Of a stretch of 64,000 nt of DNA, positions 3,116-46,345 are shown piece by piece. The stretch covers positions 3,924,443-3,988,442 of the forward strand of contig OZ024843.1 in assembly GCA_964017145.1 (NCBI GenBank), written 5' to 3'. Source of the stretch: Agrocybe praecox. Lineage: Eukaryota > Basidiomycota > Agaricomycetes > Agaricales > Agrocybaceae. The notes under the pieces are model-generated. The model saw only the letters and a program-made list of their open reading frames with translations. It ran no database searches and was not told the origin of the DNA. Within the stretch, counting starts at the first letter, position 1. Every line of letters begins with the position of its first letter. Both the position numbers and the translations under genes were made by a program.

Positions 3116-3620
3116 ATGTCACACGTTCAACCTCCTCCTCCAAAGACACAGAATCAGAGCAAGACGGTCACAGAGACTTCCCCTATCGACACATCGGAGA
3201 ATCTCACACCCAATCAAAAGCTCGAAGCTCTTCGCAAGGCAAACGCCGAGCGCGAAAAATCAAACGCCTCAGTCACAGTAGCTCAGCCGAAGGTCTACAA
3301 ACAGTTCTCAAAGGCAACAGAAGCCAACATCGCAGGAGGCCTGGTACTTGCGGGGGAGTTTGGAACGGTATCAGCTGAGCATGGGGGAAATAGGATACAT
3401 GAGCAGTTCGATGGTGCGAAGAAACCAAAACTTAGGGGCACCATCATCATTGCAGGAAATGTCGGCGAGGATGCTACAGCTGATATTCAAAAAATGATCG
3501 TGCCTCTTGAAGGCCTCGATGGTGCGTAAGAGAGATCCAATATTCAGTATGGATGTGAACAAAGTCATGAATGAAGGTGCTCCTCCAGATTTGAACGACG
3601 CACCCGCTATGAATAAGTAA
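3116..3620 (+). CDS. Two-repeat family protein 1 (HET-s-like pseudo-repeats)
   Basis: Function unknown. The start ATG at 3116 gives MSHVQPPPP. A polar N-terminal tail of about 58 residues rich in P, Q, S, T and K precedes two pseudo-repeats: residues 60-83 (KVYKQFSKATEANIAGG then LVLAGEFG) and 94-117 (RIHEQFDGAKKPKLRG then TIIIAGNVG). The Q-F pairs are 34 residues apart. Unspliced, the frame stops at 3529 (137 aa). A GT-AG intron at 3522-3588 would instead add DLNDAPAMNK and stop at 3620 (145 aa); I prefer this because the related gene at 5108 also has an intron downstream of its repeats. No signal peptide or membrane segment is seen. It converges with gene 2 and belongs to the local cluster of three paralogues. 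The similarity to HET-s prion-domain layout is an inference. Confidence 0.75.
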
Positions 3621-4073
3621 ACAAGAGAATTGATGTATTTACTGTGGAATAACATAGGTTTTAGGCAATAAGTTAAATGTCCAATACACGACCCAAGTCT
3701 CACGGAAAGTACTGTTGCGGGATTCGGCGTTCAGCCCGAAAGTCACTTGGCGTACCCAGTCTAATCTGCCAATCAAAGAAAAAGTACCTGAAGGTATTCT
3801 GATCCAATTCTTACAGGCGTTGGAATAAGTTGATTCGAGACGATCACTGAAGGAACCCATGTGTTTAAAGAAACTATCCCTGAGGACCATTTATATAGGT
3901 AACCTAGGAAAGGTTTTAAAAAAAATCCCAGTGCCCCTAAGTGAAAGTCGTGTTAAGACGCCCGCCAAGCCGCCTATAAGTATACAACTCCGGCGCCATC
4001 GATTGACTCCACGGGGATTCCCTAAGCCCGATTATTGATAATCTTGGACGAATAAAACTACCACAAAAGTTTC
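3621..4073. other. Spacer between convergent two-repeat genes 1 and 2
   Basis: About 450 bp with no supported gene. A minus-strand open frame at 3639-3890 has no recognisable features. Confidence 0.4.
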
Positions 4074-5108
4074 TTAAGGAGATGCGTTTACCACCCTCCT
4101 CCAAATTCGTTTGACAAATCCAAATTTACTCTTTCGACCCAGTGGCAAGTTGGGACTACCTGGTGAATTTACACCAACTGTTGAAACAGTTTCTTCTGGT
4201 TTTGGCTCTGGGGGCAAAACCCCGACATCTGTGGAATTCGTCAGGCCTTCATCCTGACGCGGCGCCAAATCTTCGGCAATATCGTGGTAACTAGCGGGGT
4301 CTGATATGGGAGTAGGCGGTATAATCTGAGAAACGCGATATTAGCCACGGACCCACGGTCATTGAATGGATTGCATAAAGTGGATTTTGATCTTACCTTG
4401 ATCTTGGAGTTCGTTGACTCAGGGGTAGGAGACGTTACACCTACTGGTACAGTCTGGAAAGTATCATCATTATTGACTTAGTAGTCAGAGAAGCATATAA
4501 GCTCAGGAAAAGAAATTTATAAAATATGTGTGAGACACACACCTCGAACAGGCACCGTACTTGGAGGTATTGGGTTTTCAGCTGGTGAGGTCAAAGAACT
4601 TGATCCTACAGAACTAGGAGAAGACGGGACGTTTTGCTTTCCAGGACCTTTTATATCATTCAAGAAAAATTCGAAAATGAATGTTTTGTGTTTAAATTCA
4701 AATTTGAACGCCCGTCTCACTTTGTATCGCAGCAAGAAAACTGGCAAGAGCTTTGGCACCCTCCCCCGAAATATTACCCGAAATGGCAATACCACTCGAC
4801 ATATGGACGTCCGAAGCGCCCTTGAACTGTTCGTGCGTCCTAGGCCCACCAGATTCGCCGAGTTCTTCTATCCCAATGTCCCCGGCGACTGTCAAGGATC
4901 CGAAGATTTTGGCGCCTTTTGCGTTTTCGAGCTGGTTATGCGACACGGCTTGCGGGATATGGTTCGCATTGGCGCTCGGGAGTGCATGGTCACTATCGTT
5001 GGCCTGCAACAACACGTGCCCCTTTCCAGGGAACTTAGTCGTCGTGCTTGACGATGCTCTTTGATTCTGCTGTACTTGTCGCTGTTGAATAGATGAGATT
5101 TGCGACAT
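4074..5108 (-). CDS. Two-repeat family protein 2 with long Pro/Ser-rich tail
   Basis: Function unknown. Four exons (5108-4721, 4647-4541, 4453-4397, 4325-4074) join in frame to a protein of about 267 aa. The start is the ATG at 5108 (MSQISSIQQRQ); the upstream TTG in frame is not needed. After a Q/S/T-rich tail, two pseudo-repeats occur at residues 56-79 (VSHNQLENAKGAKIFG, SLTVAGDIG) and 90-114 (RTHEQFKGASDVHMSS, GIAISGNIS). The Q-L/Q-F pairs are 35 residues apart, and the first repeat has Leu in place of Phe. The C-terminal half, encoded by the last three exons, is low-complexity Pro/Ser/Thr and ends in a basic aromatic segment, FGFVKRIWRRVV. That basic tail is unique in the family here and could bind a membrane or nucleic acid, which is speculation. 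A TATAAAAGG box lies at 5181-5189. Confidence 0.75.
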
Positions 5109-5180
5109 TTTGGGCAATTGTCAAAGAGGAGAAGGGGAATGACAAAGAAGAAAATGCAATGCTTACTACTACTAACCCCT

Positions 5181-5189
5181 TATAAAAGG
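5181..5189 (-). promoter_or_regulatory. TATA box of two-repeat gene 2
   Basis: CCTTATAAAAGG (5179-5190) is about 75 bp upstream of the ATG at 5108 on the minus strand. Confidence 0.5.
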
Positions 5190-5428
5190 CAGAGCAGAGC
5201 AGCAAGTCATGCGTTCTATCCCACCCATCTCCCTTCCCAACGGATATCAGGATCGGAACTCATACGGATCCAAATGATTTTGCTTTCATGTGGCCAGCCC
5301 CCATCGATCATCACGGATGCAACTCCTCTTTTACTTCATGCACGGTGAGAAGTGTATCGGTATTCCTTCTGTGGCTTCGCTGTGTGTAGTTTTCATATAT
5401 GTTCAATCTGTCGTTTATTTCACTCGAA

Positions 5429-6629
5429 TCAGGATAGTAACAATGAGATGCAATATTGATTACCCTGCCAGTAATATCGACAAGCACGCTGTAGTGCCGC
5501 CTTTAAATAAATAAATACACTGTCGATCAACCTCGAGGTGCTTCTATAGAGATGCCGAATTAACCTTTCAGTAATAGTATACCTTGATGAAAGCGAGATA
5601 GATAGCTCACGAGAACTGAGCGACAACGCCTCTGCAAAGGAACGTGCAGACACGGATCCAGCAATAACGACGCTGCCCGAGCCTATCTTCGCATTTTGAG
5701 AATCCTTGAACTGCGTATGTGTTCGAACACCATGATGTGGTGCAGCAGTGCCTTCCTCGTGCCCTACGTCTCCAGAGATAATCACAGTGTTCGTCACATC
5801 GCTATCGATGGCATTGTCAAACTGAGAGTGATCATGGGTAGATGCTGGTGAAACCATTCGATCAGGCGACGAGTTCTTGTTGATGTCAACAGAAGAAAAT
5901 GAGTCCAGTTTGGATCCAAGATCTTTTTGTTGTTGCAGAATAACGGCCACTGCGTTGTTGAGGTTGAGGTGTGACGCTATCTATCACACAGTCAGTATCC
6001 ACAAGGCCAATTGATATATGTCCTTCGATGACCTGGAACTTGTCAACAGCCATCGCTAACCGCTCTCGATATTGTTTTATCTGTCCTTCGTCAGATAAGC
6101 TATATATGAAGCGTAACACACGATTTCGTGCTTGTTGGTTTTGTATGAAATCATAAATCTGCTGGAGGGTGCTGCGAAATTTCAGTGATCTTTAATACCA
6201 CAATCCACGTAATGGTTTTGAAGCTCACGTCAGAAGGCTAGCTATCACCGGTACGAGGTCGTGTGGAGGCCATTCGTCTTTGGCAGCCGATCCCTTGTAG
6301 GAATCACAAACTACAGCAACAATGGCGGTCACATCGTCGGCCAGTTGCTGAAAGTCAGCTTTATTTCCTTTAAAGCGCTTGGAGAAAACGTAGGACTAAA
6401 CTTCAAAAGACTGTTTTGAACCAAGATGGTGTAACGGGCTTACCTGTACCGCTTCGACAATCTTTACGGTCAATCCTGCAGCGACTGACAAATAGGGAAT
6501 TGGAGCCAGGGAAGCAACGTCCTGAAAGAGGCCAAGTAGTAGCATGCCACCATCTAGGCTGACCTGAAGCCAGTCTGTGGCGTCGGATTTGGCTTTCTTA
6601 GAACTTTGGGGCCGTCTTGAAGAAGGCAT
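5429..6629 (-). CDS. HeLo/MLKL-NTD-like protein with two HET-s-like pseudo-repeats
   Basis: Candidate cell-death effector; function inferred. Four exons (6629-6444, 6395-6229, 6171-5990, 5949-5429) join in frame to about 351 aa, starting MPSSRRPQSSKKAK. Residues about 20-180 are helical with a hydrophobic first segment (GGMLLLGLFQDVASLAPIPY), an AAGLTVKIVEAVQ helix, a QQLADDVTAIVAVVC helix and an IYDFIQNQQARNRVLRFIYS helix. This order is typical of the MLKL-NTD/HeLo-like four-helix bundles at the N terminus of many Agaricomycete NLR-like and kinase proteins. A polar linker leads to two pseudo-repeats: residues 218-241 (DHSQFDNAIDSDVTN, TVIISGDVG) and 254-279 (RTHTQFKDSQNAKIGS, GSVVIAGSV). The Q-F pairs are 37 residues apart. 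The third intron is short (40 nt, 5989-5950). The extreme C terminus after residue 290 may be altered by an unrecognised intron. Confidence 0.75.
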
Positions 6630-8396
6630 GAAAGGGACGCTCTACTTCGGTCGTCTGCGTGGGTGCCCGATTTTATAAAGACTCCGCCGGATACGTCCGC
6701 CGTCCGACTTCTTCGAATTCGATGTGGATCGTAGGGTTTTGCTTTACTGTTCTTGCGGATGATGCGCATGAGGTTTTGTTGGATTAGTACCAGTACCCAC
6801 GTACACGTCGACGTGGGCCGGGGTTTGTGCAGTATTTCTGGTGACCAGGTCTTTGTGACTTCGAGGGTATCGCAACCCATGTCATTTACTGTCATTTTCG
6901 GGCTCCACTCAAATCTGACTGGAGTCATTGTGGATACACAAGATAGAAGAATGAAAAATGGATCAACCAGTAATCAGTAAACTTGCTGACGAGTTGCTAA
7001 TATGTACATATAACGCACAGCCCACTCAAAAAGATGGTAGAGCAGTCCTATTAGTAGATGGTAACACCGTAACTTGTACAAAACTTGAAGTTGTAAGCAT
7101 AGCTGCGTGGAGTAAATAACGAAAAAACATACCTGCCGGAAGAGTCGGAAGTTGAAATTTCAAAAGTTGAAAACCAGATATGTTGTATCGATTCATGCCA
7201 AAAGAGTTTATGCAAGCTGCTCAGAAGACAAACCCAAGATGACAGAACAGGCCCAGAATTGAAGGTGGTGGAGGTGCAACGTGATATAGCCTGGACACGA
7301 AGTGGAACAGGTCTTACGGGGTGTTGCGAAAACCCATATATGGTAATGGATGCCGCACATGCCGACTACAGCACCCGGCGCACATGATAGTACTCACTAT
7401 CCCTTCTGATGGCTCTCGGCCTCGGCCCTCTTGCGGCCCTCCTCCTCACTCCATTTCCTCCCTTTGTTCATATACTTCGCAAATATACAAGGATTTGTCC
7501 TCCTCACTATTATCACTTCTTCTGTTTTTCTCTTAAATCATTTCATCACTTTAACTTAACACAATCAAGTCTTTACGTTTCCCTCCCTCTTCCAACTTTT
7601 GTATCCTGCGGCGCGATCATTCCAGTGTACGGTGTAGTCTGCATCCTCCCTTGGGGGTGGTAGTTGAATTACCGAGGAATAAAGTTCCCGGAAGTTGTTG
7701 GGCTTATATTAACTGACAATGGATAATTCCCTGTACGAGCCTATTTTTCAGTATTCAATACACTGCCAAGTTGGACCTGTATATACATCTTGGAATTTAT
7801 TGACAAATTTACCTTTTTCTTTTCCTATCCCTGCAACACACTAGATGTTTCTGTGTCCAGGCGTCGCCCGTAGGGCAATTTAAAGGGAATGTCACATGTC
7901 ACACATGTACTCTAACTGCGACGCGTACATGTCGTTTTAGGAGGCGACTGAAATATTCCGAAATGGCAAGCGCGGCGTCGCGGTGGGCATCCTTCAACCC
8001 TTGGGCGATCTGTGGATTTTTTCTTGAAATTCTGTAAAATCTCATCCATCTCTACGGGATCCTCCACAAATCTACCAGGAGCTTATGTCAACTCTTCGTG
8101 GGGCGCACCGTTTTACTGTGCTCACTTGATTTATGCGGCTGCTTGCTTTTCTTGTCCATGTTACTGTGAAATTCCGTAACAATCCCCCTATCCTTCCAGA
8201 CTGACATCCTACAAGCAGCTCAATTTGAAACGAAGGGTAGGAAAAAGCTGTTTGTTAGCCTCGATCGTTCTCAACATGTCCTTATAACATGAACTGTCTT
8301 GGTCTTTGTTCCAAACATCCCCACTAACGTCCAAGACTGTATGCTCTGTTGATAACTACGCTAAAGTTTTAGTTCACCGGTATACACTTTTCTGAC
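6630..8396. other. Intergenic region between the two-repeat cluster and the SNG1-like gene
   Basis: About 1.7 kb. The first 60 bp hold the promoter of the minus-strand HeLo-like gene. Pyrimidine-rich stretches near 7430-7600 and 8100-8390 look like upstream or untranslated sequence of the plus-strand gene at 8397. Open frames at 6554-6928 (minus) and 7321-7663 (plus) have no protein-like features. Confidence 0.4.
6671..6680 (-). promoter_or_regulatory. TATA box of the HeLo-like two-repeat gene
   Basis: CTTTATAAAA on the minus strand, about 45 bp upstream of the ATG at 6629. Confidence 0.5.
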
Positions 8397-10569
8397 ATGC
8401 TCGGCTCGCCGACAGGGACCACATCCACATTTTCAAAAGCCACTACAAACTCATCGACGTCACCAATATGCTCCAGAGAACCAACATTAAACCTCGAGCA
8501 TACGGTAGTAGTCCCAATGCTTGCCCCGGTGCTCGTTCCTGAACCTCACACCAAACAATTCATGGAGAAGGATCCAGAAGTGAGAGCAGCACGTAATGTC
8601 TACCTACGTATGTACATCAAGGGACTCAGCACGGTCATTTTCGCTATTTTTGCGATCTTTTCGATCTACTGGGGTTCGTTATGGAAGATTCCTACTCATT
8701 CAATGCGAGGATGGATAATAGTAAGCCTCTTTTAACCATCTTGACTGTCTCTTACTCCGTGATTCATTCAGGATTTCGACGGGGACGATATAGGGCTGAC
8801 TGTGGTCCGAAATCTCACCTTGGCGCCTCCACATATCATCAAGTGGGAAGTAATGCACCCTAGACATTTTCCTCTCGGAGAAATCGACGTGATTGAAGCC
8901 ATCAAAGACGACCGAGCATGGGTCGTGGTAACGAGTATGCCTTCAAATTTGTGATCAAGCATATACGAGAGACTCTGACGTGTGTTGGCGCACAGTAAAC
9001 ACGGCAGCTACTTCGAATCTTCTCGAAGCCATCATCACCCCAAACCCTCAATACAACGGCTCTGCAGCTATCACGGTGTATGGAGTAGAAGCACGAAACG
9101 AAAATGCTTAGTGAGTCTATTTCTGTAGTTAACACTATGGAAGCTATGAACTTACATCCTTTCGACCAGTCGGACTCTGATTCGGCCTAATGCACGTCCT
9201 TATCTCTCGAACTAGTTGTTTTTTCCCATAACGGTTCTCATAGGTGCAAATATTCCTCGACGCAATCAAGCTGGATTATGCTATTCGATTGGTCTCCCAG
9301 TTACCTTCATCATCTGTCGACGTGTTGTCTCTGATGTCAACGTCCCCACAAACACTCGTTAATCCTATATCATACACACTCCTTAATGTGATTCCATTTA
9401 ATCAACCGGTGTAAGATTTAAACCTCTCTTATAAACCCATGTAGATCTCACAGGGTTCTTCACAGCGCAAGCGCTGTAGTCTTTGTGGGTCTGATCTATC
9501 TCTTAATTTTGTCATTCTTCATTGTTGTAAGCAACTTCATTTCTTCCTTCTTACCATGTTCTACTTATGGCGCCTTCATCGCTACTAGATGATTGGGTAT
9601 GGAGCCCGTCAAGCTTCAGGACTCAACAAAATACTATGCCTCAGATCCATTATTATAGTTCGCCTTGTTTCCTCCTTTTTTGCATATTTCTTTCTTTCCG
9701 TAAGTTTTCTTACCCTTGACATACTGCAAGCTCGATAGTGACTAACATTCAACAGTTCTTTTATTCTTTGCTCAATCTTGCTTTCAAACTCGACCTTACG
9801 CGGAGGTGCGCTCATCGGACCTTTTAATTGCCTGATCTCATTGTGCCCAATAGATACGGTCATTTTGGTTTCTTCTTGTTCTGGATGCTGAGTTGGATCG
9901 GAATGCTTTCGGTGTAAGTGGACATGTTTTCTGCTATCGGTACATTGACGTGAAATTTCGTTTCTTTCTCAAGTGGCCTTGCTCTCGATTCTTTAATAAC
10001 GTTGGTGGGACCAAATTACGTCCCTTACTTTATGATTTTATGGATCATCAGTAGGCCTAGTTTATTCTCGTGGACGCTTTTATTATTATTATTATTGATC
10101 CTCGTATTCTTTTTTTTTCCAGCAAACGTTGCGGTCTGCATCTTCCCAATAGAGATTCTTCCTTGGATTTATCGATACGGACACGTCGCGCCATTCTACA
10201 ACATTTCAAATTCCATACGCTCATTAGCATTCGGGACGAAGAATACTCGTAAGTTTGACTTGAACCTTACCTGTCTGTGGCTAATTCCACGTTCCCATAT
10301 CTTCAGTCGGAAGAAACTTCGGAGTCCTTTTTTTCTGGGTCCTTATATCGTGTGTAACTCTGCCTACTATCCAGTGGTATGTGCGTAGAAAAGAAGCAAG
10401 AATAGCAGCGAAAAAGACGGCCTCGTTAGCGGTACCACCAACCCCTCCTTCGCATCCCGAGAAACGTCATGTGTTGTTATCGCACATCAAACTACCACTT
10501 ATTCAGCGGTACGTAAGGAAGGCAGCTGAACGTGCAGGGCACCCCGATCCAGAAAAACAGGCGTCATAG
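8397..10569 (+). CDS. SNG1: SNG1-family (DUF3533) membrane protein
   Basis: Polytopic membrane protein of the fungal SNG1/DUF3533 family, named for nitrosoguanidine resistance in yeast. Twelve exons: 8397-8720, 8772-8934, 8996-9110, 9170-about 9191, 9244-9410, 9454-9526, 9589-9699, 9756-9805, 9854-9913, 9974-10050, 10123-10248 and 10307-10569. The N-terminal polar tail is followed by a first membrane segment (VIFAIFAIFSIYWGSLW), a large extracellular region with ITPNPQYNG, then a cluster of membrane helices: VFVGLIYLLILSFFIV, FWMLSWIGMLSVGLAL, YFMILWIITNVAVCIFPIEI and GVLFFWVLISCVTLP. The family hallmark PIEILPWIYRYGHVAPFYN is present. The C-terminal tail is basic. All joins but one use GT-AG in frame. 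The exon 4-5 join needs a phase-0 donor, and only a GC donor at 9192 fits. Confidence 0.85.
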
Positions 10570-13807: not shown

Positions 13808-13830
13808 CTCTGTATAATCATAATCTTATA

Positions 13831-16385
13831 TTACATCTGTCCTCTTCTCATCAAGTTCCTCCTGATTCTCCTCTTGTCGGCACCATGAGCACCTTCCGGA
13901 GCCTTGCCCCATTGCAAGAAAGGTACATTATCACGATCAACACCAGCGATATCGCCAACATCAGCCTCTTTGTCTTCAAAGTTCCTGAAATCAAGCATGC
14001 CCCAGACGGGAAGTTCCATTTCGCCCTTGACGAGCACGTGAGAGTTTTCCAAGAACGAGTGAGGCAGAGGAGTGAGGATATGGAAAAAGATTTTTGGTGA
14101 AGATGGTCCGTTTTCTGTTGTGAATGATGATACACCCCGAATAAGGCCAATACCAACACAGTTGGATGATGCAGGAGATGGAGGGCTAGAGGTCCGATTG
14201 TACGGAATTCCAGATGTTCTGGTTTCAAACCCGATTTCCACATTTCCAGGCTCGCAGGCAACAAAGCCCACGATTGCACCATTAAGGACTTGGGCGATCT
14301 CTTCTTCCACGACGTCCTCGTTTCCTGCACCTGTAAGAATGATCTTGTCAAAAGCGGTACCGCAATCGACCTGGTAAGGTGGAATAGCACATAAAGGCCT
14401 TGAAACATCCCATGATTGCACGTTGATTTCGTTCCATGCGTCTGGAGTTGCATCAAAAGGATACCGAGCGTGGAAATACGACATGATCGATATCGCTCGG
14501 TGATCTGACGGTGTGTATCCCGCAGCTGATGATGATGAAGGTACGAGATCCAGAGTATGCACGAGGGCGGTAGTTGCCTCCATGGACGAGTAATCGTGGT
14601 ACGCGCCATAACCATTTTGTTGGCCACTGATAGTAATGGGGGGCACAGAGACGGGCCAATCTTCCCTCACTGGTGCGTGTATGTCGAAGATGTCGGTAGG
14701 TTCCAACATACTTTCAATCTTTTGTGTCAAATCTGCGCCTAACCCTTTGGACCATCCCATGGTATTGACGACGATGGGAATGACGTCGAATATCCTTTGG
14801 TCGCCAACTTCCGTGCCATCAAGGTCGGGTGTTTGTACATCCAGACGATAACTTTGAATTAAAGCAGAGATTGCATCAAGGTAAAGGGATGGCGACGATC
14901 TCGGTGTCGTCGACCCAATATAATGACTATATTTCGGTAAGATGGGATGCGTAAAGGGTGGACCTATATTTGGTCAGGATGTGATCAAAATATCTTCAGA
15001 ACATGCTTACCGAAAACTGGTTTTGTAATCATATTCAGGGAGACCATACCTCCAGGAGTAAATTCCGACTGGCCAAGATCGCATTCAAGGAATGCAACCC
15101 GTTGATACCTGAAAGTAAATTTATTTATTGACTTGGTTTGTTCAAATTCAATTCAAATTCAAAAAAACTTACGACTCGAGCAACCTGTTCATCAAAGTCC
15201 GTGCAAACGTGCTTTTGCCGCTGTTCTTGGGACCTTTGACTATGTATGCTCCACCAAGAACACTGTCTCTAGGAATAGCCGCACGATTGAGAGCGTCGGC
15301 CCAGGATGAGGGAAGGTTGAATACATGGCATTCTTTTGACAGTCGGCGGACCTAGAAAATTGATAAGAATTAAAACGATACCAAATGTTGACCATGCAAA
15401 CCAAATAAAGACCTGAAATCCCGAAAGGAGATTCTATACTACTTCTTTGCCACCTTGACGGTTCAAAAACGCCTTCAAATGATCGACACACACGACCAAG
15501 ACCGTGAACATTCGTGTTTAATTCCTGAAGGACGACAATAGCTTGAAATTGAAGGAATTGTTGGAGACGCGGTGGCAAGTTAATAGCTCTTGATTCTGAC
15601 CTAGTTCCGACGCGTATAACGGGAAGGGGCGCTGAACGCGGGGCATACAGTGGATACGAGGTTCCTGATGCTTTGAGTGTCGTTCCGCATATGCTGATAG
15701 AGCCGTGCAGAATCGACAGGCTACATGTTCCCAATAGACACAGCGTATCTTCAGAATTTAGCCCAACCACTGTCGCGCCATCCTGCAAGCCTAAAGCTGA
15801 ACACTCTTCCCGAGATAGGATGAGTACGCTGTGATCCATCTCTGGTTTGAAAGTTGACAGTATCCGGTCGTCGTCGATTTCATTTCTTGAAACTTGCGGG
15901 TTGGGTAGAATCGACGAGATATCGAACGGTCCAGAAATCTCAGCGTCGTCTTGAATCGAGTCTTCGTCCGATGAATCAACTATTGGTTGGCTTGGGGACC
16001 ACGCCCTCTTCACCATAGGGTTTTTCGAGTTTTCCAGAAGGTCCAGCGGGTTAAAAGTTTCCAAACCACTCATAGCCGAATCTGATCCGTCATCCTCTTC
16101 GGAATCAACAACGATGATATCTGCTTGGGTTTGAAAGTCATCAGCCACGCGCTTTAGTTTCTGTTTCTGAGAATCTTTGCTATTCTTTGCCTTCTTGACT
16201 TCTGGACGCGGTTGTTGTGTAGATAACTTGCGTTTTGACTTCGGTAACGATGCTCCCGCTTGGGGCGATGAACCAGAGAAAGATTTTGGACCAGAGCTGG
16301 AACAAGACGGAACTGGTGTCTCCTGGGTAGAAGCAGCCTGAGAAGCTGCTAAAGCTGCTTTTCTGGCAGCAACAGCGCTTAACAT
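13831..16385 (-). CDS. GRC3: Polynucleotide 5'-hydroxyl-kinase GRC3
   Basis: GRC3/NOL9-family kinase, which phosphorylates the 5' end of 26S pre-rRNA during ITS2 removal together with the nuclease LAS1 and also promotes rDNA transcription termination. Four exons: 16385-15402, 15351-15173, 15108-15011 and 14963-13831, about 797 aa. A long disordered N terminus (residues 1-190) has Ser-rich, Lys-rich nuclear-localisation-like (PKSKRKLS, PEVKKAKNSKD) and acidic stretches. The P-loop GPKNSGKST lies near residue 368, followed by the CLP1/GRC3 hallmarks FLECDLGQSEFTPGGMVSL and VVNTMGWSKGLGADL. The C-terminal domain ends DKRRIRRNLMRRGQM. All introns are GT-AG and 50-70 nt. No defects seen. Confidence 0.94.
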
Positions 16386-16826
16386 ATAGGATATACGTAT
16401 GTCAAGTCGTATCCGGGGTCAGGACGTCAAGAAAACTATCGGAGATTGAATATCAATCGCAAGATCTTTCGAGCGGAGTTTGAATTTAAACACGACGTGT
16501 CGACGAGCGCTAATTCCTGATCAACTCGCAGTGTCATTCAATGAACAAATCTTCCTCTCAACATGTCATACAGACATCTAGACTGACCCAAATATGATTA
16601 TATGCTATGTTGCGTGTATCATGGGAGGCGGAGCAGGACGAATTATAATACTTGTCAAGTGGTTAACCAATTCCCTGACCAAGTCTGGTATTGCAGGTCA
16701 GCCACTACGTCTTTTTGTTAAATATCGCTTGAAGTTATTTTTTACAGAAAAACTTCAGGATACCCACAATCTTAGTACACTCTACCAAAACACTGTCTCT
16801 ATAAGCCACAGACTACACACCATTAT
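16386..16826. promoter_or_regulatory. Divergent promoter region between GRC3 and a Ser/Thr-rich gene
   Basis: About 440 bp separating two divergently transcribed genes; no gene or clear repeat inside. Likely shared promoter sequence by position only. Confidence 0.35.
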
Positions 16827-21424: not shown

Positions 21425-23533
<2,109 letters not shown>

Positions 23534-25429: not shown

Positions 25430-25437
25430 TATATAAA
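25430..25437 (+). promoter_or_regulatory. TATA box of DUF6593 gene
   Basis: TATATAAA about 98 bp upstream of the ATG at 25535, followed by a C-rich tract. Confidence 0.55.
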
Positions 25438-25534
25438 GCACCCCCTCCACCTGCTTTTTGGCCCAATTCCCTCCCCCCCCCAAAATACCTTCTTAACACT
25501 AAAGCAGCTTCCGGGCTGGTCAGGATTCACGATC

Positions 25535-27771: not shown

Positions 27772-28111
27772 TCACTCACAACGCGTGGTAGCATCACCGG
27801 CAATTACCGTGAACATTTTGATCTCCAAGCCTTGCGCGCCTTTGAACTGCTCGTGCACCCTAGGCCTCTGAATGCCCTCGTTGGTCTGTGCAATATCCCA
27901 GCGACCAACATGAAGTTGTCCACATCGACCCTCACTACATTTTCGAATTGCTTGTGCGACGTTAAATTTTCCTGTTTTTGGTCTGGATCGATACATTGGC
28001 CGCATCCTTATTTGAAACGCCTTGAGCCGTGTCCCATTTGCCAGTAAAAACGTTTGTTGGAATTGTTGTGGGTTGATTATGAAGCTTGTGTATATTTCGT
28101 GGGTTAGACAT
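27772..28111 (-). pseudogene. Broken member of the two-repeat family (copy 4)
   Basis: The minus-strand ATG at 28109-28111 gives MSNPRNIHKLHNQPTT, close to the starts of the copies at 40089 and 46345 (MSNTT...). The frame stops at ...TKNRKI. Repeat 1 (TSHKQFENVVRVDVDN, FMLVAG) is readable only in the next frame, and repeat 2 (RVHEQFKGAQGLEIKM, FTVIAGDATTRCE) only in the third. Two frameshifts therefore break it, unless short introns I cannot support restore it. It is preceded by the family TATA element at 28162-28171. No gene product is assigned. Confidence 0.7.
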
Positions 28112-31100: not shown

Positions 31101-33644
31101 ATTTAAAATCGAGATAAAACCTGTTTTTCGGAGGCCCAAATAAATGTCTAACAGACATAATTTAGTCTCTATTTCCTCCTGGTTTACCAACTTACACGAT
31201 CATGAAATGTAAAATGTACCTTATGAGTGAAGGGAAGAACGAAATTCAAGCCTGTAAGATGTATGAACCTTGTATTCAGCCATGGTCACCAACCATTGAT
31301 TAACGTTGAAACGTTGACCCCTGGTGCTCAGTACTTGTTTCCCAATCAAACACAAGTTATTACGGTACGTGACGTTATAATGAACCTTCCCGACCTCTAG
31401 ATCCTTGATCAATGTTTTGCGTGTCATGAGTCCGCCAACCTCCGTCGTATGTATCGCAGACCTCTCGAGCACCCTTCATCCCAGGATAGGGATTGGCTGC
31501 CCTGTAGCTTCCATTCTTTCTGCATGCAACCCCGAATGAGAAAGGATCGATATTCGGATTCGGAGGTGCGGAGGTGCCAGAGTGTTCATAAGAGAAGAAG
31601 TTGGCACAGCCTCGGCTGAACACTTCTGTTTGCGCTCTAAGGTGGATGATGGCGTAGTGGAGGTATGAATCAGATCTTATATCTCCCCACTACCGACTCC
31701 TCGATCCGCGAAACTGAACATGAAGTCAATTTGGGGTCGGTTATGAAGTTCTCGGAGACCAACGGGTACATACTGATTTCATTCATTTGTCAACAGGATT
31801 TGGCTTTTGACATGTTCGTTACACGACGAGGACGACAAGGACAAGGACGTGATCTATGACTGGTTGATGATGTTGATGGGGGCACACCGAAGTTATGAAA
31901 GCCAGAGAGTTCGAGGTATCATGTCAAGACACATGGAGCTCGAATAACCTTTCTCATTCCATGGCAATGCGACGCTGACTTCTTGCCGCACTTCTATTGA
32001 TCACATCACAACTGAAGTACTGATTCCCGTCATCGTCGACAAAAGCTAATAGGACTAATGAAATACATTTCCTATGATCATATCATGACATAGACTCGGA
32101 GCTTACCTAGACGGAGAAGAAGAAACTTGCAAGAGATGAGAAAGAATACGACAATCACACCTCCCAGATCATCGATACACTTCCGAGTCGTTCTCCCAAG
32201 TCCAATCCTCCTTCGAAACTGAGCGCGTCCTAAGGCCATCAATATCACGTTGAATGGTTGACAGATTCGAGATATGCACCTTTTGTATGCAGACACAAAC
32301 CAGGTGAAGAAGAGAACATGATGTGGAAAATTTTTCCCTCATGCGCTCCACATCGCATTGGACCCATACAACTCTCGTCAACTCGTCGCAGCGCGCTAGT
32401 GTGTCTTGAAGTCCTAAATTTTGTCGGTAATCCTTGTAGAAGTTGCACCATGAGGCGCCTGCCTACCCAAATGTCGGACTAGTCGCGCGCTCGTACACAC
32501 CATGTCTATGTCCCCAAGAGTTCCATTATTCATCGGATTCTCCGCTCGAGGATCAAGGCAAAGTGCGTTGTATCCCTTTCCAGCCGTGCTGACGTCGTCG
32601 TCTCGAGGATCAGACGCTCAAGGAGCACGTCAATACGTCGGTATGTCGGCGTGTACCAGAACACGTTGTCCAACCAACGTATGAGTACCCCGGTCGGTCG
32701 TATCAGATTCCCATTCACACCAACAAATAGGTAGTAGTGCGTGTGTACTATGAACATCATTAAACGTTCCACTATTCCTGACATCCCATGCCGTACACAA
32801 GGTCTCCATGGACCGTCACGATCGGTCGTCGTTGGCCATGTGTGCTGGTGTAGTAAACTTTTCACCGTTCAGGCGCTGAATATGTGCAACGTCCCATATT
32901 CAGCCCAAGTTGCAATGGATGATACTTTAACTTGGCAGTGGATCAGGCAGTCTACCGCTGGCTGGGATAGCTGATGTTCAGAGGCGCGTCGAGCAAACAC
33001 GCTACGCGCACGAAAGCAGATACAGTCAAAGACGGTCAAAAGCAAGGATTAAATTCTGCCATGTAAATACTCGTGGCGCTGTCATTGATCGATGATCAAT
33101 CAGTCATACAGTGGGGAAATCTAATCTAATCTATGTACGACAAATCGGGTAGTCAGACTGCACTGCCACAGCCACCAGTGACGATGTTGACGCTTCCGAC
33201 ATGGTTGACGCTGAATATGGTGCAAATTACAATTGGAGGGTTAAACTGCAGTGATACAACATTGGAAGAGGTATTGTGAGCACATGTGAAAGGGAAAGGG
33301 ACGTGGTGAAATAAGTTCAAAAGACAGGGAAAAATTCTCACTGTAGGTAGTACCAAACCAGACATCTACGTCGGATTGATCCCAGCGTTGAGCGTCAGGC
33401 TCCTGGTTGGCTTTTGAATTTGACAACAAAGGAATAGTGTATAAAAAGAGAAATGATGTCCATGAAAAAAAGGTTATGCACGATGTTAATGAAAAAGTGA
33501 ACAATCGCATTGCTGCCAAGCAAGGTTCTCTCCCCCTCATAATTACGTAAGAAGTTTGAAAGAACATTTGTCTTTGTTTATCTTGCTTTGTTTTGTCTTC
33601 TACAACTAACTTGCTCTCTTTTTCGCGCCACCGATCATGATTAA
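28112..33644. other. 5.5 kb gene-poor, decayed region
   Basis: The first 60 bp hold the promoter of the family pseudogene. Beyond that no gene is supported. Many short frames (for example 30332-30781 plus, 31375-31623 minus, 33241-33567 minus) lack family features, and codon use is not coherent. It is probably an accumulation of old repeats. Confidence 0.4.
28162..28171 (-). promoter_or_regulatory. TATA element of family pseudogene 4
   Basis: GCTATAAGTA on the minus strand, about 54 bp upstream of the ATG at 28111; identical to the element at 3054-3063. Confidence 0.5.
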
Positions 33645-34984
33645 TTATTCTTGCCGACTCAGCGTGGAGCCTCTTCTCAACACACCGTAACCATTCATGT
33701 AAATTTCGACTATGGTTGGCCTAACCACTTCTTGACTCTTCTTCCTCGCTCGTTCTTCCCACCATGTCTTCGTGTTCTCGTTCAACGCATTAAGCCGCTT
33801 CATATCTTTCGCCAACTCTGCCGACGGATGTTGTTGAAATATGACCCCTTCAAAGTCACGAAGTAGGCGTATGGTGTCCCGTCCTCGACTTTTTGAAAGC
33901 GCCACGTACACGCTGAATGGCGATATCTGCCCTGTGGTAGGTTTTGCTATGTCAATTATGACATACTCTATTGTCTGACCTTGTGCTTTGTAGTCGGTGA
34001 ACGCGTAACTTGGCGTCAACACAAGCTGTCGTCTCGTCACTTTGATTTCTTTCCCGTGTTGTCCTTTCGCTGCGAATGACACTGCACTTGGTACAATTGG
34101 AATCACCCCATTTCGCAGGCCTTCAAATTTCAAACTTCAGACTCGTTCCTTTATCCGGTCGGAACAGTATCATTGCTGGAGGATATTTCAACTTTGTTGT
34201 CCCCGTTCCTTCGTTGTGCATTGGCTCCCTCGAATCCAGCAATATCTCCTCAATTGTACCTCTTGTACCATTCGCAATTTTGCCTTCCGTCGATACATTT
34301 ATCAGAACCATCGCTTTCATCCCCTTCGCGAGCATGACTTCCTCTGTGAGTTTGCCCGTCGCTTTGTCTGACATCCCGCAAACTGCTAATCTTCCTTTCG
34401 TATCCAGCTCTCCTCCTGTGCCTTTATATGTGTCTTCGGCCGTAGCAATATGCAATCTTTCTTTTTCTTTTGCGCAGTGTCTTTTAAGTTGTAACCGCGC
34501 TCGTGTCCCACCTTTTGCGAACTGAATGGCGAGGAGTGGCGAGGATGGCATTATTGGCAAAATCTGGTACGTCACTTTGGATTCGAAAGGACAAGCTTCC
34601 TGACCTCCTTCAAGTCTCCTTCGCTGCATTGTCCAACTCGTAGGTGCTGCAATATTTGGTTCCATACTAGATCGCGCGTTCTTATTTGCTCATCGAGAAT
34701 GACAACGGTCTCAAATTGCAAAAAGAGTTCCCTTCCAGGTTGTGATCGTGCCTTATCTCCTTTCACCGTGTGCGTGTCGCTGTATAGTGCACCTGACGCG
34801 TTTCCCACTGGCGGGAACTGGTGAAAATCACCGCACAGGATGACATGCATTGAACCGAACGGGTCTTGGTGACTGCCCTGCCCCTCCATGCCTTTTGTAT
34901 GCACTGTTATTCCCGAGGTTTTGAATAACGCCACCTTATCCAACATTGAACTTTCATCAATGATAAGAACTCTTTTTCCTTCGA
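33645..34984 (-). pseudogene. PIF1/Helitron-type helicase, C-terminal remnant
   Basis: Superfamily 1 helicase domain as found in fungal Helitron transposases. In order on the minus strand: Walker B-type VLIIDESSMLDKVALF, motif III MHVILCGDFHQFPPVG, LDEQIRTRDLVWNQIL, then VMLAKGMKAMVLINVSTEGK with ANGTRGTIEEI, and the terminal motif AFTDYKAQGQTIEYVIID with YVALSKSRGRDTIRLLRDF. The frame changes near 34572 and again before about 34510, and once more near 34130, so no continuous protein exists. Walker A and any Rep nuclease domain are absent. A dead transposon fragment. Confidence 0.75.
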
Positions 34985-39694: not shown

Positions 39695-40089
39695 TCAGGA
39701 GGAGTTGAAGGCTATTAGTGAAAGGATAGCAATGAGAAATACTGATCCTCTTACTCACAAGTAGAATCGCCGGCGATCATGATGGTGCGCTTAATCGTCA
39801 GATTCTGGGCGTTTTTGAATTGCTCGTGCTCCATGGGCCCTTGAAGCCCATCTTCTCTCTGCAGATTATGCCCAAAAATCAATAGTGATCCTTCAACGTG
39901 GGCGCCCACTACGCCTTCGAATTGCTTGTACGACCTGAGGTTTTGTTGGTTTTGGTCTGAATTGGTGGACTGGCCCGCCTTATTGTTGTCGTTGACGATG
40001 CCTTGGACCGTGTTTCCCGTGCCAGGGAAGGTCGTTCTAGTGGGTGTGGGTCGATTATCAAGCATGGGGAGTGTTGTGGTGTTAGACAT
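39695..40089 (-). CDS. Two-repeat family protein 5
   Basis: Function unknown. The unspliced frame from ATG 40089 runs to 39751 (112 aa). A GT-AG intron at 39758-39712 gives exons 40089-39759 and 39711-39695 and changes the end from DSTCE to DSTSFNSS (115 aa); the duplicate at 46345 has the same option. The N-terminal 50 residues are polar (N, Q, T, P-rich). The two pseudo-repeats are residues 52-74 (RSYKQFEGVVGAHVEG, SLLIFGH) and 86-109 (MEHEQFKNAQNLTIKR, TIMIAGDS), with Q-F pairs 34 residues apart. The family TATA element lies at 40129-40138. About four fifths of residues match the copy at 46345. Confidence 0.75.
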
Positions 40090-40128
40090 TGTACTGGGTC
40101 GAGTATGGGTTATTGGAATCAGTATCCA

Positions 40129-40138
40129 TACTTATAGC
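40129..40138 (-). promoter_or_regulatory. TATA element of two-repeat gene 5
   Basis: GCTATAAGTA on the minus strand, about 45 bp upstream of the ATG at 40089. Confidence 0.55.
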
Positions 40139-41341
40139 AGAACATCGAGGGCGAAATTGCGGCCACAGACACGAGACATCCACCTAATCGGATCTCACGC
40201 GGAGCCAATTACTATACTATTCTTTGGGTATTGTTCTCGTATTATTCCTTTCTTTGTCCTCGCTCTCTCCATTTTACCTCATCAAAGTTGAAACTATTTT
40301 AACGACGTTATCAAATACTTTAGGTCCTGGCCATCGTGTCGTGTTGCAAGCGGCGCTTAGAAGATGTATCTTGCGGCAACTTCTATTAAAAAAAGAAGCT
40401 GGCAGCTCTTTAGGATTTCCTGAACGATATCATACCAATGGCGGCTATTTTGGATTATGCCACTTCAAATTAGTCAACTGTATAGAAAACTGACGAAAAA
40501 TGTGTGGTGAGTTTCGGTTAAAGAGGCTGTAATGCTATTCGGGGTAGCAAGATGTCTCCTCCATCACCAACATTTGTCCTTTTTAAAATTTGTACAGAAA
40601 TCAGCCGTGAACCAACGTCCACGACTAGTACACGGGTGCTTTTTTACCGGGCCCCAATCAGTTGACATATTTTGCAACATGCAATACACCCCTCCCACTT
40701 AACCCATACCTGTCGGTGGACAACCGTTACCCAGGGTATGGGTTCTGGGCCTGTGTCATGGCCTTTGAGGCGTATACTGAAAATAGAAATATATATCGAG
40801 AGAGAGAGATCAAACGTTTGGCATAAGGCAGTGAATCACTGTAAATGTGTAGGTGATGGCAATCTGGCCTTTTGTTGTCCACTAATAAGGTCTAAGGCCG
40901 AAGCTAGCCGAAGGCCGCAGGGCTTGCTCAATGTTTAGGTCCAACTACCTAACTCCCAAGTTTTATATAAGCCGAAATAGTATTCAATACAATTTTGAGG
41001 TAGAATATACCTGTAGGTAGTATGATCTCACCGTATTTGCATCATAACTCAAATGCTCATGGACATCGGACCGGGGACAGCGCCTACTGTCAAAGCATGA
41101 GTATATTCTGTTTAGAGTTTCATAATGATCATCCGAAGAAGTTTCCCGAGAATACGGTATATACATGGGTACTCGGAACCACTTCTCTTTTCTTTTTGAG
41201 ACCCGAACTTGCTTGCGCATGCTGTATCAATGTTCTTGAAATGTCAGATTCTTCGAAAAGTGCAGACGGACTAAAAATGACAAGCTCAAAATTGTATGTA
41301 TGTTCATTTTTAGGCTGCGTAAAAAATCGAACCCGGTAATT

Positions 41342-41552
41342 CACGGCAGGCGCCGATACCTGTATCTCTGAGAAACAGGTTCATAAATATAGGTCGTGTG
41401 TATTTATTAACCTGTATGTGGAAGAGATAGGCTCGGGCTTCAAGTTCCCATATATAGTATGTATGGCCAATGCTTGTATATTGGAAATACAGGTCAGTAT
41501 ATACACGCGACCGTTATATATTTCCGATATACCGGTATCGGCGCCTGCCGTG
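41342..41552. mobile_element. 211-bp hairpin-rich element with terminal inverted repeats
   Basis: The left end CACGGCAGGCGCCGATACC is the near-perfect complement of the right end (GGTATCGGCGCCTGCCGTG, 41534-41552). Inside are several short stem-loops with stems of the form CCTGTAT/ATACAGG. Inverted, it is colinear with 48304-48446. No clear target duplication is seen. Short non-autonomous element of unassigned type. Confidence 0.7.
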
Positions 41553-41785
41553 TATAATATGGTGCAAGACACATCAAGGGAAATTTCAGTTTGATAATGG
41601 CAGGTTCTTTCCATTCCAATGGTTCCATAGAGCCAATCGTGTTACTATCAAGATGTACCCGGAATTCCATTGCAAAAGTTCTTACGATGGGGTGTCGGAC
41701 CACTAGGTGATTTATTTGTGTTTTTAGGATCGTCTGACGATCAATCGGATCCTCATGATTCGCTGTAAGGATGAGACGGTGTTGG

Positions 41786-41932
41786 CACCTGTATTTCCAA
41801 GATACAGGTATCGGCTATACTATATATGGGAAGCTGGAGCCCAGTGTATCTTCGACATACAGGTTAATGAATACACGCGACCTGTATTTATTGACCCGTT
41901 TATCCGAGAAACAGGTATCGGCGCCTGCCTTG
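41786..41932. repeat. Partial copy of the hairpin-rich element
   Basis: Opposite orientation to 41342-41552. It contains CCTGTATTTCCAAGATACAG-type stem-loops and ends ACAGGTATCGGCGCCTGCC; the other terminal repeat is missing. Confidence 0.65.
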
Positions 41933-44414
41933 TGATAGCTATCAGCTCATATACATAGTCAGCGCCATTTAGATAAAAGATATTCGGGGATATCTAAAGA
42001 TAGTTTTCCGCTATTTATGGCAGGAGTGAAAAGGGACATAAAAATCATCCACAATGTCCTGTTTTAACATACCTTCAAGTTATACATGCCCTGAGCTTTA
42101 TTAGAAATTACAGAACCATCTCTCTCAGAACATAATAAGTGACTAAAACATAGTAATCAACGAACAAAATGCAGTGCACCACGTTGAATGTATATATGTA
42201 GTTTACTCTTATTGCTTAGGGAAAATGTCAAAATCTGACAGGACTTCCTCGTGTCCTATTAATACTTGCCTGTCACGCTACATATCAAAGCAGCACTAAG
42301 TCCTGTCGTCGAAGCAGGATTTTTTGTGCAGCTCTTTTAAGGGAAACATGCTAATGATATGTCTCGGCTTCAATCAACCATTCACGCGGTGCAAAGAGCT
42401 TAATACCATTATTAAATGATTACACATACTTTATATACCTAAGGGGTACCAGTTGAGAAAAGAAAGCATCCATATTTGAGCTTGTCCGACGCTCAAGCGA
42501 CGCTTGAGGCATCAAGAAGTCTCACTTGACGGCACTTGGATCGAAGCCGAACTCGGAAATATGACTTGCCGTAATGCCGTCTGGGTTCGAACTTTGATCA
42601 ACGTGTCGCGCGTCGCGTTGCTGCCGCGGCCCCTTCGCCTCTTTGTACCACCACAAACAGACTGGGCGTATTTATCCTCCCTCTCAATCAAAACCTTCTG
42701 CCTAACCAAAGAAATCTCCAAGCTTTCTCTACGACATATGCGCTATTCCGTCCGCAATCAACACGATTATCGTTGCATGGCAGGCGTGCCGCATGCTCCA
42801 AATTTCCCGACAGACAACGTCCGCAACCTCAATGTCAGTGTAGCACCCTCATTTATACACGAAAATCCACACTAATGATTGACTGCATGTCCCTATATTT
42901 TGGGTGGGTCGTTGCCAGACGTCAAGCGTAGGGGTTCTCGCTGTTCAATATGCGGTATGTTAGTGATTCATATATGCTCATATATTCAAATGTTCCCCTT
43001 TTAAAATCATTCTTCTTGCAGGAAAACATAAGCTGGCTAGTCAAAATACACCAATTCTGCACAACCGGCCTATTTGCAATTATCGACATTGTAAAATGGT
43101 CTATTCTATGGTATGTTACATGATCTTTCCCATATCGGCTTTTTAACACGTATACATTGATCGTTTTGAACGCAACGCATCTCAAACAACGAGTAAACAA
43201 TGCAACCGAAGATTATATATCGTCAGTGTTAGGTTCTACTTACCAAAACATAATCCCCAAGACCTACACATACTTTCTCCTGTGCAGCCCCGTTCGGAAG
43301 TGCGAATACGAACATTTTCGGGGTACCGGTAAGTGACGGTCCATCTCCTATACACTCTCGCGTCAATTTTTCACCTCGGAACAGATACTTAACCTATAAA
43401 TTCTCAGTTAATTCGACGTCCAAAATCGCTCCGCCCGTTTGACGTCTCTAAACCACGGAAATCGACATTCCCGGAGTGTATATTCTGTTACGTATGATCT
43501 CAATTCAGTCTGCGATACGCTTTTTGTTGTGTGCAGACATTGTACATAGTAAAAATAAATACTGCTATGATATTGATTAGTCAACCATCCAAAATGCCGT
43601 CTAAGAGGGTCTCTGCATTATATCTCTGATAGTAGTACCAACTCTTATCTTCGAGACAATATTTTAGGACTGTATTTGGTGGGGTCACAAAAGCAGGAGA
43701 AAGTACTGAAATCATGACGGATTTGGCACCAGCTTCTCCTGCTTCAAAACAGCATAATTGAGTGCATCTGTTAAATATCGCAAGTTGCGTAGTACTGCGC
43801 ATCATATGTGGTGGTACACTCAAGGTATTTGAAGGCTATCTTTCATCACGAACTTATTGCTCCAGGAATACTTTCGCCCGAGCCTCTGAACCCTGTCCAA
43901 AATTAAATTACAGTAATTTTTCCTTTGAGAGTTCGCCACGCCTTTCGAAAATTAACAGCAAACACCTATGTAATGGCCTTCTAAGCGTCCTTAAAATCGC
44001 GCGTAGGTAATTAGAATAGATATGTACCGTAAAGCCTCGAGGTACACATGTACAATCTCGTATGTACACGTGGACGAATCAATTATCATGATTCGGTTCC
44101 GAGAGCGCTTTCAACTTTCGAGCAGAACGCCACAAGAGCGCCCACAGGGGTCATGGCCGCGGTGGACATGATAATGATAATGCAGGAATTGGGGGAATTT
44201 GGCAAGGGTCCCAATCGAAGGGCAGCGCTGCGGTCACTAGTAATAATTAAGTACTACTACGGCTTAGAAAATAAAATAATACACCGATTCGGATATGTGC
44301 ATGGTGTATATAAGTATGGTGGTCGGTATGTACGTATGGTGATCGCTGGCGCTTTGGGTTGTGATTTCAAGGTCCGTAGCCAAGATGAGTTTAGTGTTTT
44401 TTTGCTGTAGTCAC

Positions 44415-45420
44415 ATGATATAAATATAGCTACATAGTTACAAGCTAGTTATTGTACAAAAAGGTTAGACTGGAGCCTGGGAGAAAAGTGAGACGTAAGA
44501 ATAAGTAACAGCATCGAACCACTCCCTATCACCGTTGTACCGTCCTTCTCGCTCGCGCCCATGCTCCTCAACATCGCTGTCTCGGCATCATTCATCCTTC
44601 ATCGTCCGAACCGCTGTTCATTGTTGTGCTTGCTGTTCATCGTCATCAACATCGTCACGGTCCTTTGACGTCTTGTGATGTAACCATTAGCGTTCCTCCT
44701 CATCCCCTGGACGCCACCCCTCGCCTCCAAAAAACAACCGAGCCCACTGTCTCCATTGCCATCGTTGCCACCGTTGTTCTTCGCAGCTGTGTTGGCCATC
44801 CTCGGCATCATTGATGCTGTTGAGCGTTGTCCTTTGATACAATCACAATCAAAATCAGTGTCGCCATTTTTGGTTCACCGTTGTACTTTTTTTGTCATTG
44901 CTGCGGTCGTTCGTCGTCGTTGTGCATCGTGGTGATCACCGTTGTTGTTGCCTGCTTTCGAAATTGTGTGCGCAGTCATTTTGAACTCCGAATGTGCTGT
45001 GGGAATCGGGATGCCGTTGTGCGGCTGCGAGTGATTCACGTGCCTTTGTTTGTTTACTGCCGCCACGCTCATACCATTTACAGTAATTCCTACCTTGTTC
45101 CTCGTGTGCTCTCCCTTACAGGATGCCAGGATGCTCCGCTCCGAGAAAGACAGAACTAGATAGGTAAGCTGGTTCAAAGAGCCCCAGGTGTATGCTGATT
45201 TGACCCTGATGCAGGTGAACAAATGGCGAAAACTGAAGAACGACTATGCGCGGCGATGGTGGGTGTACCAAAGGGTCTTCACAAGCAGGTAAGCATAAGC
45301 TCGTGTTCCGACCTCATAAAGTGAAATCTCACCTTGTTTGGTTCAATTTTCGTAGAAAGCGCATCCAAAAGCCCGCGTGATAAATGATAACCGTCTATTA
45401 CAGTGTTCATAGCATCAGTG
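44415..45420. other. Spacer between duplication copies A and B
   Basis: About 1 kb including a GT/TC-rich tract (44530-45130) rich in cgttg and catcg words. Frames on both strands look like low-complexity artefacts; no gene supported. Confidence 0.35.
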
Positions 45421-45953
45421 ACAATAATATCCGTCCGAATTTTGTCACGAAATCTACCCATGGACCATTCTGGTCGGTCATTGACGCGTTAGCACGCCGA
45501 AAACGCGCTCTTCGCGTTCTGGTTTCTTCTCTTTTTCTCATGACTCTCACTAGACCGTCACAGACAACACCAAAGTCCACCTCTCTTGCTCAATCGCAAA
45601 ATCATGGTATCAGCTGATATTCCCCGAAGACTTGGTGATGCCTGCTGGTATATGGCTCATGGCTTGTCAAAAAGTTTCTGTGATATTTCTGGAGTGCGTT
45701 ACAAGTTTCAGGGAGACGATGTAATACAAGACAGAACATCCATTATCCCCCATGCTCCGCGCCTCATCGATCATCCATCATGCCCCATCTCTATATCGAC
45801 ATCTCAAATGGCTCCCACGACTTCAGGTTTCCCAGTTATAACCTTATCCATCATGCTGTGCCAGACACGCCTTCAGGTATCCCAGGTATCCCAGGTATAA
45901 CCTCAGGCCTCGAGGCCTCATCCATCCTGTTTGCAAAGACGAGTCCGACTGTC

Positions 45954-46345
45954 TCAGGAGCTGAAGGCTATTAGTGAAATGATAGCAATGAAAAATACTG
46001 ATCCTCTTACTCACAAGTAGAATCGCCCGCGATCATGATGGTGTGCTTGATTGTCAAATTTCGGGCGTTTTTGAATTGCTCGTGCTCCATGGGCCCTTGA
46101 AGCCTATTTTCTCTCTGCAGATTATGCCCAGAAATTAAAATTGATCCTTCAACGAGGGTGCCCACTGCGCCTTCGAATTGCTTGTACGACCACAGGTTTT
46201 GTTGGTTTTGGTCTGGATTGGTGGACTGGCCCGTTTCCTTGTTATCGTTGACGATGCCTTGGATCGTGTTTCCCTCGCCAGGGAAGGTTGGTCTAATGGG
46301 TGTGGGTTGATTATTAAGCTGGGGGAGCCTTGTTGTGTTCGACAT
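45954..46345 (-). CDS. Two-repeat family protein 6
   Basis: Function unknown; duplicate of the gene at 40089. The unspliced frame is 46345-46007 (112 aa). A GT-AG intron (46014-45968) gives 46345-46015 plus 45967-45954 and the ending DSTSFSS (114 aa). The pseudo-repeats are WSYKQFEGAVGTLVEG, SILISGH and MEHEQFKNARNLTIKH, TIMIAGDS. Substitutions relative to copy 5 spare the Q-F, hydrophobic and Gly positions, which suggests the protein was under selection after duplication (to be tested by codon analysis). TATA element at 46385-46394. Confidence 0.75.

Follow-up and report, generated by a model that had tools for sequence, protein, structure and literature searches.

Does a group of small genes in a mushroom genome encode a doubled, amyloid-like signalling motif comparable to that of HET-s? 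The question is raised by a 64,000-nucleotide stretch of Agrocybe praecox DNA (assembly GCA_964017145.1, contig OZ024843.1, here C4, positions 3924443-3988442 of a 59.2-Mb genome; hereafter the window). A preliminary description, made from the sequence alone, had proposed that six genes of this window, at 3116, 5108, 6629, 28111, 40089 and 46345 (g1-g6), each encode two copies of a motif built around Q-F-x-x-A. Six-frame translation of the window confirmed two motif copies of ~22 residues at all six loci, with reading frames intact at five of the six (in the case of 6629, once spliced). The F-to-F spacing is 34 residues in g1, g5 and g6, 35 in g2 and 37 in g3, the very range of 34-37 that had been proposed, and the positions of the repeats bear out the HET-s-like doubling and spacing. 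We give about even chances to the reading that the repeats are a two-copy β-arch amyloid-like signalling motif, with g3 as the executioner and the other members as templates, adaptors or brakes.

The membership of the family differs in part from the six coding members first listed. The start codon, the first repeat (R1) and the second repeat (R2) of g4 each lie in another frame, and the distance from R1 to R2 is 101 nt; for these reasons g4 is probably a pseudogene, which leaves five intact members in the window. One more intact copy, g7, was detected outside the window (Table 1). Beyond these, no further close member was found in whole-genome protein searches, in which scores were given to the best candidates only. 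The Q-F core stands in most repeats; QL takes its place in three, namely R1 of g2 and the two repeats of g7.

Left-one-group-out profiles, run on 4,095 reading-frame pieces from the window and five flanking stretches, recovered at least one repeat of every omitted group. E values were 2.3e-6 and 3.3e-6 for the g2 repeats and 1.4e-5 and 0.002 for g3, while those of the g4-g7 group ranged from 1.3e-6 for the strongest match to 0.51 for the weakest (g4 R1), with g1 given in Table 1; the best non-member in the four runs had an E of 0.38. Because the profiles still recover the group left out of them, the likeness between the repeats is, judged by their sequences, not due to chance. When g1 was used in the whole-genome search, g2 (E 6.8e-6), g3 (0.0026), g7 (0.006), g5 (0.05) and g6 (0.19) were matched. 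A profile of the R1 copies matched R2 of g1 (3.9e-4), g7 (8e-4), g2 (0.0024), g4-g6 (0.047-0.089) and g3 (1.3), and the R2 profile matched R1 of g3 (1.8e-5), g2 (3.5e-4), g7 (0.027) and g6 (4.3), with R1 of g1, g4 and g5 absent from its best 16 matches. These cross-matches point to a single family of repeats, duplicated inside each protein, in which the R1 copies are the more divergent.

Table 1. Members of the repeat family and positions of their repeats (window positions unless C4 is given; ORF, open reading frame)
Feature	Position	Strand	Description
g1	3116..3529	+	intact single-exon ORF, 137 aa; polar tail and two repeats; no Pfam domain
g1 R1	3287..3364	+	left-out E 2.3, alone not significant
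g1 R2	3389..3466	+	left-out E 5.7e-5
g2	4698..5108	-	ORF, 136 aa; polar tail with FPGKG block and two repeats; further splicing possible at 3' end
g2 R1	4872..4949	-	QL variant
g2 R2	4767..4844	-	repeat
g3	5432..6629	-	at least 4 exons; alpha-helical N-terminal domain, two repeats, SFAEALS tail; 3' end uncertain
g3 exons, about (by reading)	6629-6444, 6395-6229, 6171-6033, 5980 onward	-	
g3 R1	5762..5836	-	repeat
g3 R2	5648..5725	-	repeat
g4	27772..28111	-	broken across three frames; probable pseudogene
g4 R1	27965-27891	-	
g4 R2	27864-27787	-	
g5	39751..40089	-	intact ORF, 112 aa
g5 R1	39939-39865	-	
g5 R2	39837-39760	-	
g6	46007..46345	-	intact ORF, 112 aa
g6 R1	46195-46121	-	
g6 R2	46093-46016	-	
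g7	C4:3997627, outside window		intact ORF; E 2.1e-15 with g6

The key member is g3, and the helical domain upstream of its repeats is the most telling feature of the family. The locus had been read as a small two-repeat ORF; it is instead a spliced, multi-exon gene in which a predicted helical domain, overlooked in the preliminary description, lies N-terminal to two C-terminal repeats. The gene model is supported by three paralogues (C9:2682774, C9:2683859 and C1:4642481) that match exons 1-3 one at a time and with almost identical limits. These C9 and C1 paralogues are devoid of QF repeats and end in coiled-coil and P/Q-rich stretches and a GNVINT-type motif. By eye, a terminal GN-V-I-N-T type stretch is common to the paralogues of the g3 helical domain at the C9:2682774 region, C1:4642481 and C1:4638755 (L017, L018 and L055); it is possibly another short signalling motif. 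A metagenome protein, P0001, resembles part of the g3 helical domain (E 3.7e-41, 69% identity) and was the sole match among 2,539 candidates, and two others, P0002 and P0003, match the last exon (E 3.5e-14 and 1.1e-13; the sole two matches among 3,152 candidates) and retain both repeats and the SFAEALS tail. Based on these matches, the helical domain and the pair of C-terminal repeats recur in relatives of g3, though on separate contigs in the matches seen.

The helical domain resembles agaricomycete MLKL-like domains, a likeness taken as a lead only; no test run confirmed it. Pfam scans of five family members, five other proteins and five helical-domain sequences yielded no match for the family, the g3 domain included, and the PDB sequence search, in which the helical domain was included, returned nothing below an E of 0.21. 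Looked at for a four-helix bundle, the AlphaFold2 (AF2) model of the domain, folded as an intron read-through from an 8-row alignment, is all helical, but with a predicted local distance difference test score (pLDDT) of 39.7. Alignment by hhalign with the genome's own MLKL_N gave a probability of 0.1 (reversed controls 0.2), and Smith-Waterman alignment against shuffles gave p values of 0.20-0.58 in four comparisons. None of these results supports an MLKL, HeLo or Goodbye identity; since the alignments are thin (effective number of sequences, Neff, ~1.5), they are weak evidence of absence. The putative effector role of g3 is read from its architecture, because no test gave the helical domain an identity.

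Is the QF motif related to a motif of the NOD-like receptors (NLRs) of the same genome? The NACHT repertoire of this genome is very large, with at least 150 scored matches among 376 candidates and clusters on C1, C2, C3, C6 and C7. From the 150 scored matches, 17 NLR loci were hand-picked; they are the only independent sample, because the loci on C1, C4, C7 and C11 were recruited through motif similarity. An F-x-x-A-x-x-F-x-I-x-G-G-x-F motif opens 12 of the 17 NLRs. In each case it shares the strand of the NACHT domain, and its distance from the NACHT-side end of the stretch examined is 293-379 nt. With a profile built from seven non-NLR F-x-x-A motifs, seven of the 12 were matched at E <=0.031 and five at 0.23-2.9; a 13th match had 3.2 bits, and the opposite-strand control on the 17 stretches gave three matches at 3.7-4.2 bits. 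Several of the 12 (L058, L060, L062, L064 and L065) are, by eye, close paralogues, and so the 12 NLRs do not amount to 12 independent cases.

A QF profile of 18 repeats, 14 from g1-g7 and four from P0002 and P0003, was also run on 3,309 frame pieces from loci of the same genome. Its top match, at C4:858305 (E 2.4e-5), has the repeat HIHSIFSNAQNFQISGGTMIAGSVS, which is intermediate between g3 R2 and the F-x-x-A-x-x-F-x-I-x-G-G-x-F motif; judged by this sequence, C4:858305 bridges the QF repeats and the F-x-x-A motif of NLR type. It was followed by two-repeat proteins on C11 (0.032) and C1 (0.072), a piece from C7 (0.22), another two-repeat protein on C11 (0.54), the N terminus of the NLR L059 (0.61), a further piece from the vicinity of the C4 protein (0.77) and the N terminus of the NLR L057 (1.7). 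The reversed control of this profile starts at an E of 0.84, and therefore L057 alone is not above control. When the 17 NLR loci were searched by themselves (2,202 pieces), NLR N-terminal motifs took ranks 1 and 2 (E 0.4 and 1.1) and rank 5, ranks 3 and 4 were other sequences, and the best reversed control was at 8.3. A mixed-feature consensus query matched C11 (1.1e-7), C4:858296 (1.6e-6), g2 (1.7e-5) and g1 (0.011), values that are partly circular because features of both motif types were built into the query; another motif consensus gave only 3 weak matches in the genome, at E 0.27-0.75. At the level of profiles, the QF motif is thus related, if divergently, to the motif of the NLR N termini, and the likeness to F-x-x-A-x(4)-I-x-G-G at NLR N termini that had been pointed out earlier holds at that level.

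The F-x-x-A motif class also turns up outside NLRs and evident effectors, and at least one long protein that is apparently no NLR begins with it. Further small proteins, each with a pair of motifs of the F-x-x-A-x-x-F-x-I-x-G-G-x-F type, were observed at C4:858305 (L053), C11:3421566 and C11:3424382 (L040 and L041) and C1:4842268 (L036); L041 and L053 possibly have three.

A basidiomycete class of amyloid-like motifs, NLR05/08/22/29/44, has been described in 689 NLRs, where it lies at the very N terminus and comprises three hydrophobic residues and a G[DN] pair (PMC9815663). It was chosen by an amyloid-motif grammar, and ArchCandy was passed by 28-55% of instances (NLR44, 0%); Table 1 of that source gives 0 effectors for all five motifs, and its other searches yielded few effector-side candidates (PMC9815663). 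The NLR motif of the present genome probably belongs to this class, going by the published description. As in that class, the related F-x-x-A motif sits at the N terminus of the 12 NLRs, whereas none of the QF-form copies found does; unlike the single copies at NLR N termini, the QF motif is doubled and is C-terminal or contained in domainless proteins. The proposal of an unrecorded family therefore stands only in part: there is no Pfam match for any of the five members scanned, but an agaricomycete NLR-side class of such a kind has been published as amyloid-like (PMC9815663), and for this reason the kind is already known. What looks new is that the motif occurs in a doubled QF form, that this form is fused to an effector-like protein and that there are domainless copies; a doubled or domainless family of QF type was not found in the open-licence literature searched. 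A protein such as g3, in which a helical domain is joined to two copies of a related motif, is a concrete candidate for the effectors still lacking for NLR05/08/22/29/44. The PP, sigma and PUASM motifs are likewise short and common to effectors and NLRs, and are set apart by their descriptions as having other signatures (PMC9815663, PMC5485727).

Could the repeats form a two-rung β-solenoid? HET-s has two 21-residue repeats and a 15-residue loop (PMC5485727). Like HET-S/HET-s of Podospora (Ascomycota), the proteins described here have two pseudo-repeats that are joined by a polar loop and recur with a period close to 36, and g3 has, like HET-S, a helical domain ahead of the repeats. The architecture of the HET-s-related amyloid motif (HRAM), i.e., two ~21-residue repeats and a ~15-residue loop, is found in all five intact window members, given their spacing of 34-37. 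AF2 indicated, with modest confidence, two matching strand-rich rungs and no confident globular domain, as R1 and R2 share the strand pattern, with block pLDDT of 71-78 over the cores and 61-65 between them. Foldseek on the g1 model returned HET-s or HELLF fibrils as three of 11 matches, all of them non-significant, and VIA on the same model was not significant. The best PDB sequence match for the repeats had an E of 0.64. The preliminary description had set a known globular fold against its proposal, and none emerged in Pfam (five members), in PDB sequences or in AF2. As to an N-terminal HeLo or HeLo-like domain, an upstream domain was seen only in g3, where it is predicted helical but unmatched.

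By analogy with HET-s amyloid signalling, the family may work as follows. The N-terminal motif of an activated NLR would take up a β-arch and template the doubled motif of g3, as the analogy with HET-S suggests. The helical domain of g3 would be kept inactive until templated, HET-s-like stacking of the two C-terminal repeats clusters it; freed and clustered as in HET-S, it would kill the cell, which would make g3 the executioner. Members g1, g2 and g5-g7, with no effector attached, would contribute the same two-rung unit and join the polymer as templates, adaptors or brakes, either relaying or soaking up the signal.

Several results weigh against this reading. The strict HRAM signature (hydrophobic residues at 3, 6, 8 and 14 and G17) was found in none of the 18 repeats in the registers tried, and in 1 of 25 when seven F-x-x-A seeds were included (shuffles, 2.4%). 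In one common register, the four HRAM hydrophobics are present in 10 of the 18 repeats if Ala is counted, a point of likeness to HRAM, but in 1 of the 18 if it is not, and Gly stands at position 16 in 14 and at position 17 in three. In searches that scored the best candidates only, neither an NLR nor a kinase with the QF form came to light. Furthermore, tblastn with one NACHT exon over the window and its five flanking stretches detected no NACHT, while the positive control recovered pieces in 17 of 17 NLR stretches. Because of these last two results, the NLR step is the weakest part of the mechanism. Unlike HET-S and HRAM proteins, the family thus departs from the strict signature, lacks a HeLo match and an adjacent NLR in the searches made, and consists mostly of members without a recognisable effector domain.

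The failure of the strict signature, together with the non-significant structural likeness to HET-s fibrils and the occurrence of the motif class outside NLRs and evident effectors, would fit repeats that are a small non-amyloid β module, for example a unit for binding or oligomerisation, whose likeness to the NLR motif reflects common descent without templating. We regard this as unlikely, given that AF2 yielded no confident globular fold, that neither a Pfam family nor a PDB sequence match below 0.64 was found, and that the closest published class came from the amyloid-motif grammar (PMC9815663). In another explanation, g3 is the BaMLKL-type effector of an ordinary NLR/effector amyloid pair and the other genes are irrelevant. 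Such pairs are known from Moniliophthora roreri and Fibularhizoctonia, where C-terminal motifs of BaMLKL proteins are shared with unlinked NLR N termini; agaricomycete effector/NLR cases are mostly unlinked, and HeLo with a double HET-s motif occurs in two species (PMC9815663). The large NACHT repertoire described above agrees with a pair of this type, and g3 shares with BaMLKL effectors a helical domain, a C-terminal motif and the lack of a linked NLR. However, its domain gave no MLKL match in the tests run, its motif is doubled, and domainless copies were not found described in the accessible parts of PMC9815663; an ordinary pair is therefore doubtful.

What are the domainless members? The polar tails, previously described as unrelated, are not all so: g5, g6 and g7 have a tail in common, with traces in g4 (by eye), and its FPGKG block is also present in g2. 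g6 is a near-duplicate of g5, with 80.5% DNA identity across 1,203 alignment columns. The rates of synonymous (dS) and nonsynonymous (dN) substitution were 0.217 and 0.098 for g5-g6 (Fisher p 0.02), 0.64 and 0.33 for g6-g7 (p 0.007) and 0.52 and 0.34 for g5-g7 (p 0.06), three pairs that are not independent of each other; the g1-g2 comparison was saturated. There is weak purifying constraint in g5-g7, and, with dN below dS, this speaks mildly against dead fragments. Such fragments would be expected if the domainless members were spin-offs of a g3-like gene, i.e., copied C-terminal exons that drift without function. That g4 is broken, that the left flank of the window has what may be a degenerate pair close by, that the copies found are few and confined to one chromosome, and that no metagenome relative of the domainless kind was found (3,152 candidates, g3 last-exon search) all suit this explanation. 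It is nevertheless somewhat improbable: g1, g2, g5, g6 and g7 open from their own start codon (MS or MP) and all five retain both repeats, the tail block common to g2 and g5-g7 is absent from g3, and dN is below dS in all three pairs, with p <0.05 in two.

If the amyloid-like reading holds, the domainless doubled proteins suggest that genes can encode the amyloid scaffold alone, as a subunit free of any effector. Free two-rung subunits were not found in the accessible parts of PMC9815663 and PMC5485727 or in the open-licence literature searched. A three-part system of single-motif NLRs, the double-motif g3 as the one effector and free domainless subunits, in which the last would serve as dedicated templates or brakes that set the threshold or memory of a death switch, is a speculative and rather unlikely extension.

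Further stretches resembling the motif were seen in and near the window. Just left of it, in L020, a possible degenerate repeat pair lies at ~3650-3540 (minus strand; C4 ~3922.6 kb, 1.9 kb left of the window); the pair is not significant, as its best profile E is 0.62. An HSIL..ASDVSMTGG-type stretch runs from L020 3453 onward on the same strand. A pattern match at C4:1639253 was taken as chance, since it lies outside all frames of at least 55 aa in that stretch. Two weakly related proteins, at window 36338-35628 (minus strand) and at L035 282-1181 (plus strand, a gene that runs over two open stretches), each carry one motif-like stretch close to the N terminus (HLFADANNIKVTDSNIIGS and HSILNNSQNVIVNNSLIIVGD) and, towards the C terminus, a hydrophobic stretch that may span a membrane; BLASTP between these sequences, compared alone, gave E values of 3e-4 and 0.004. 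Other neighbours in the window are a polynucleotide kinase of CLP1/NOL9 type, split across exons (13831-16418, minus strand), and two that were recognised by eye, a RuvB-like helicase and parts of a mobile element with a helicase (21664-22923, plus strand, and ~33241-34689, minus strand).

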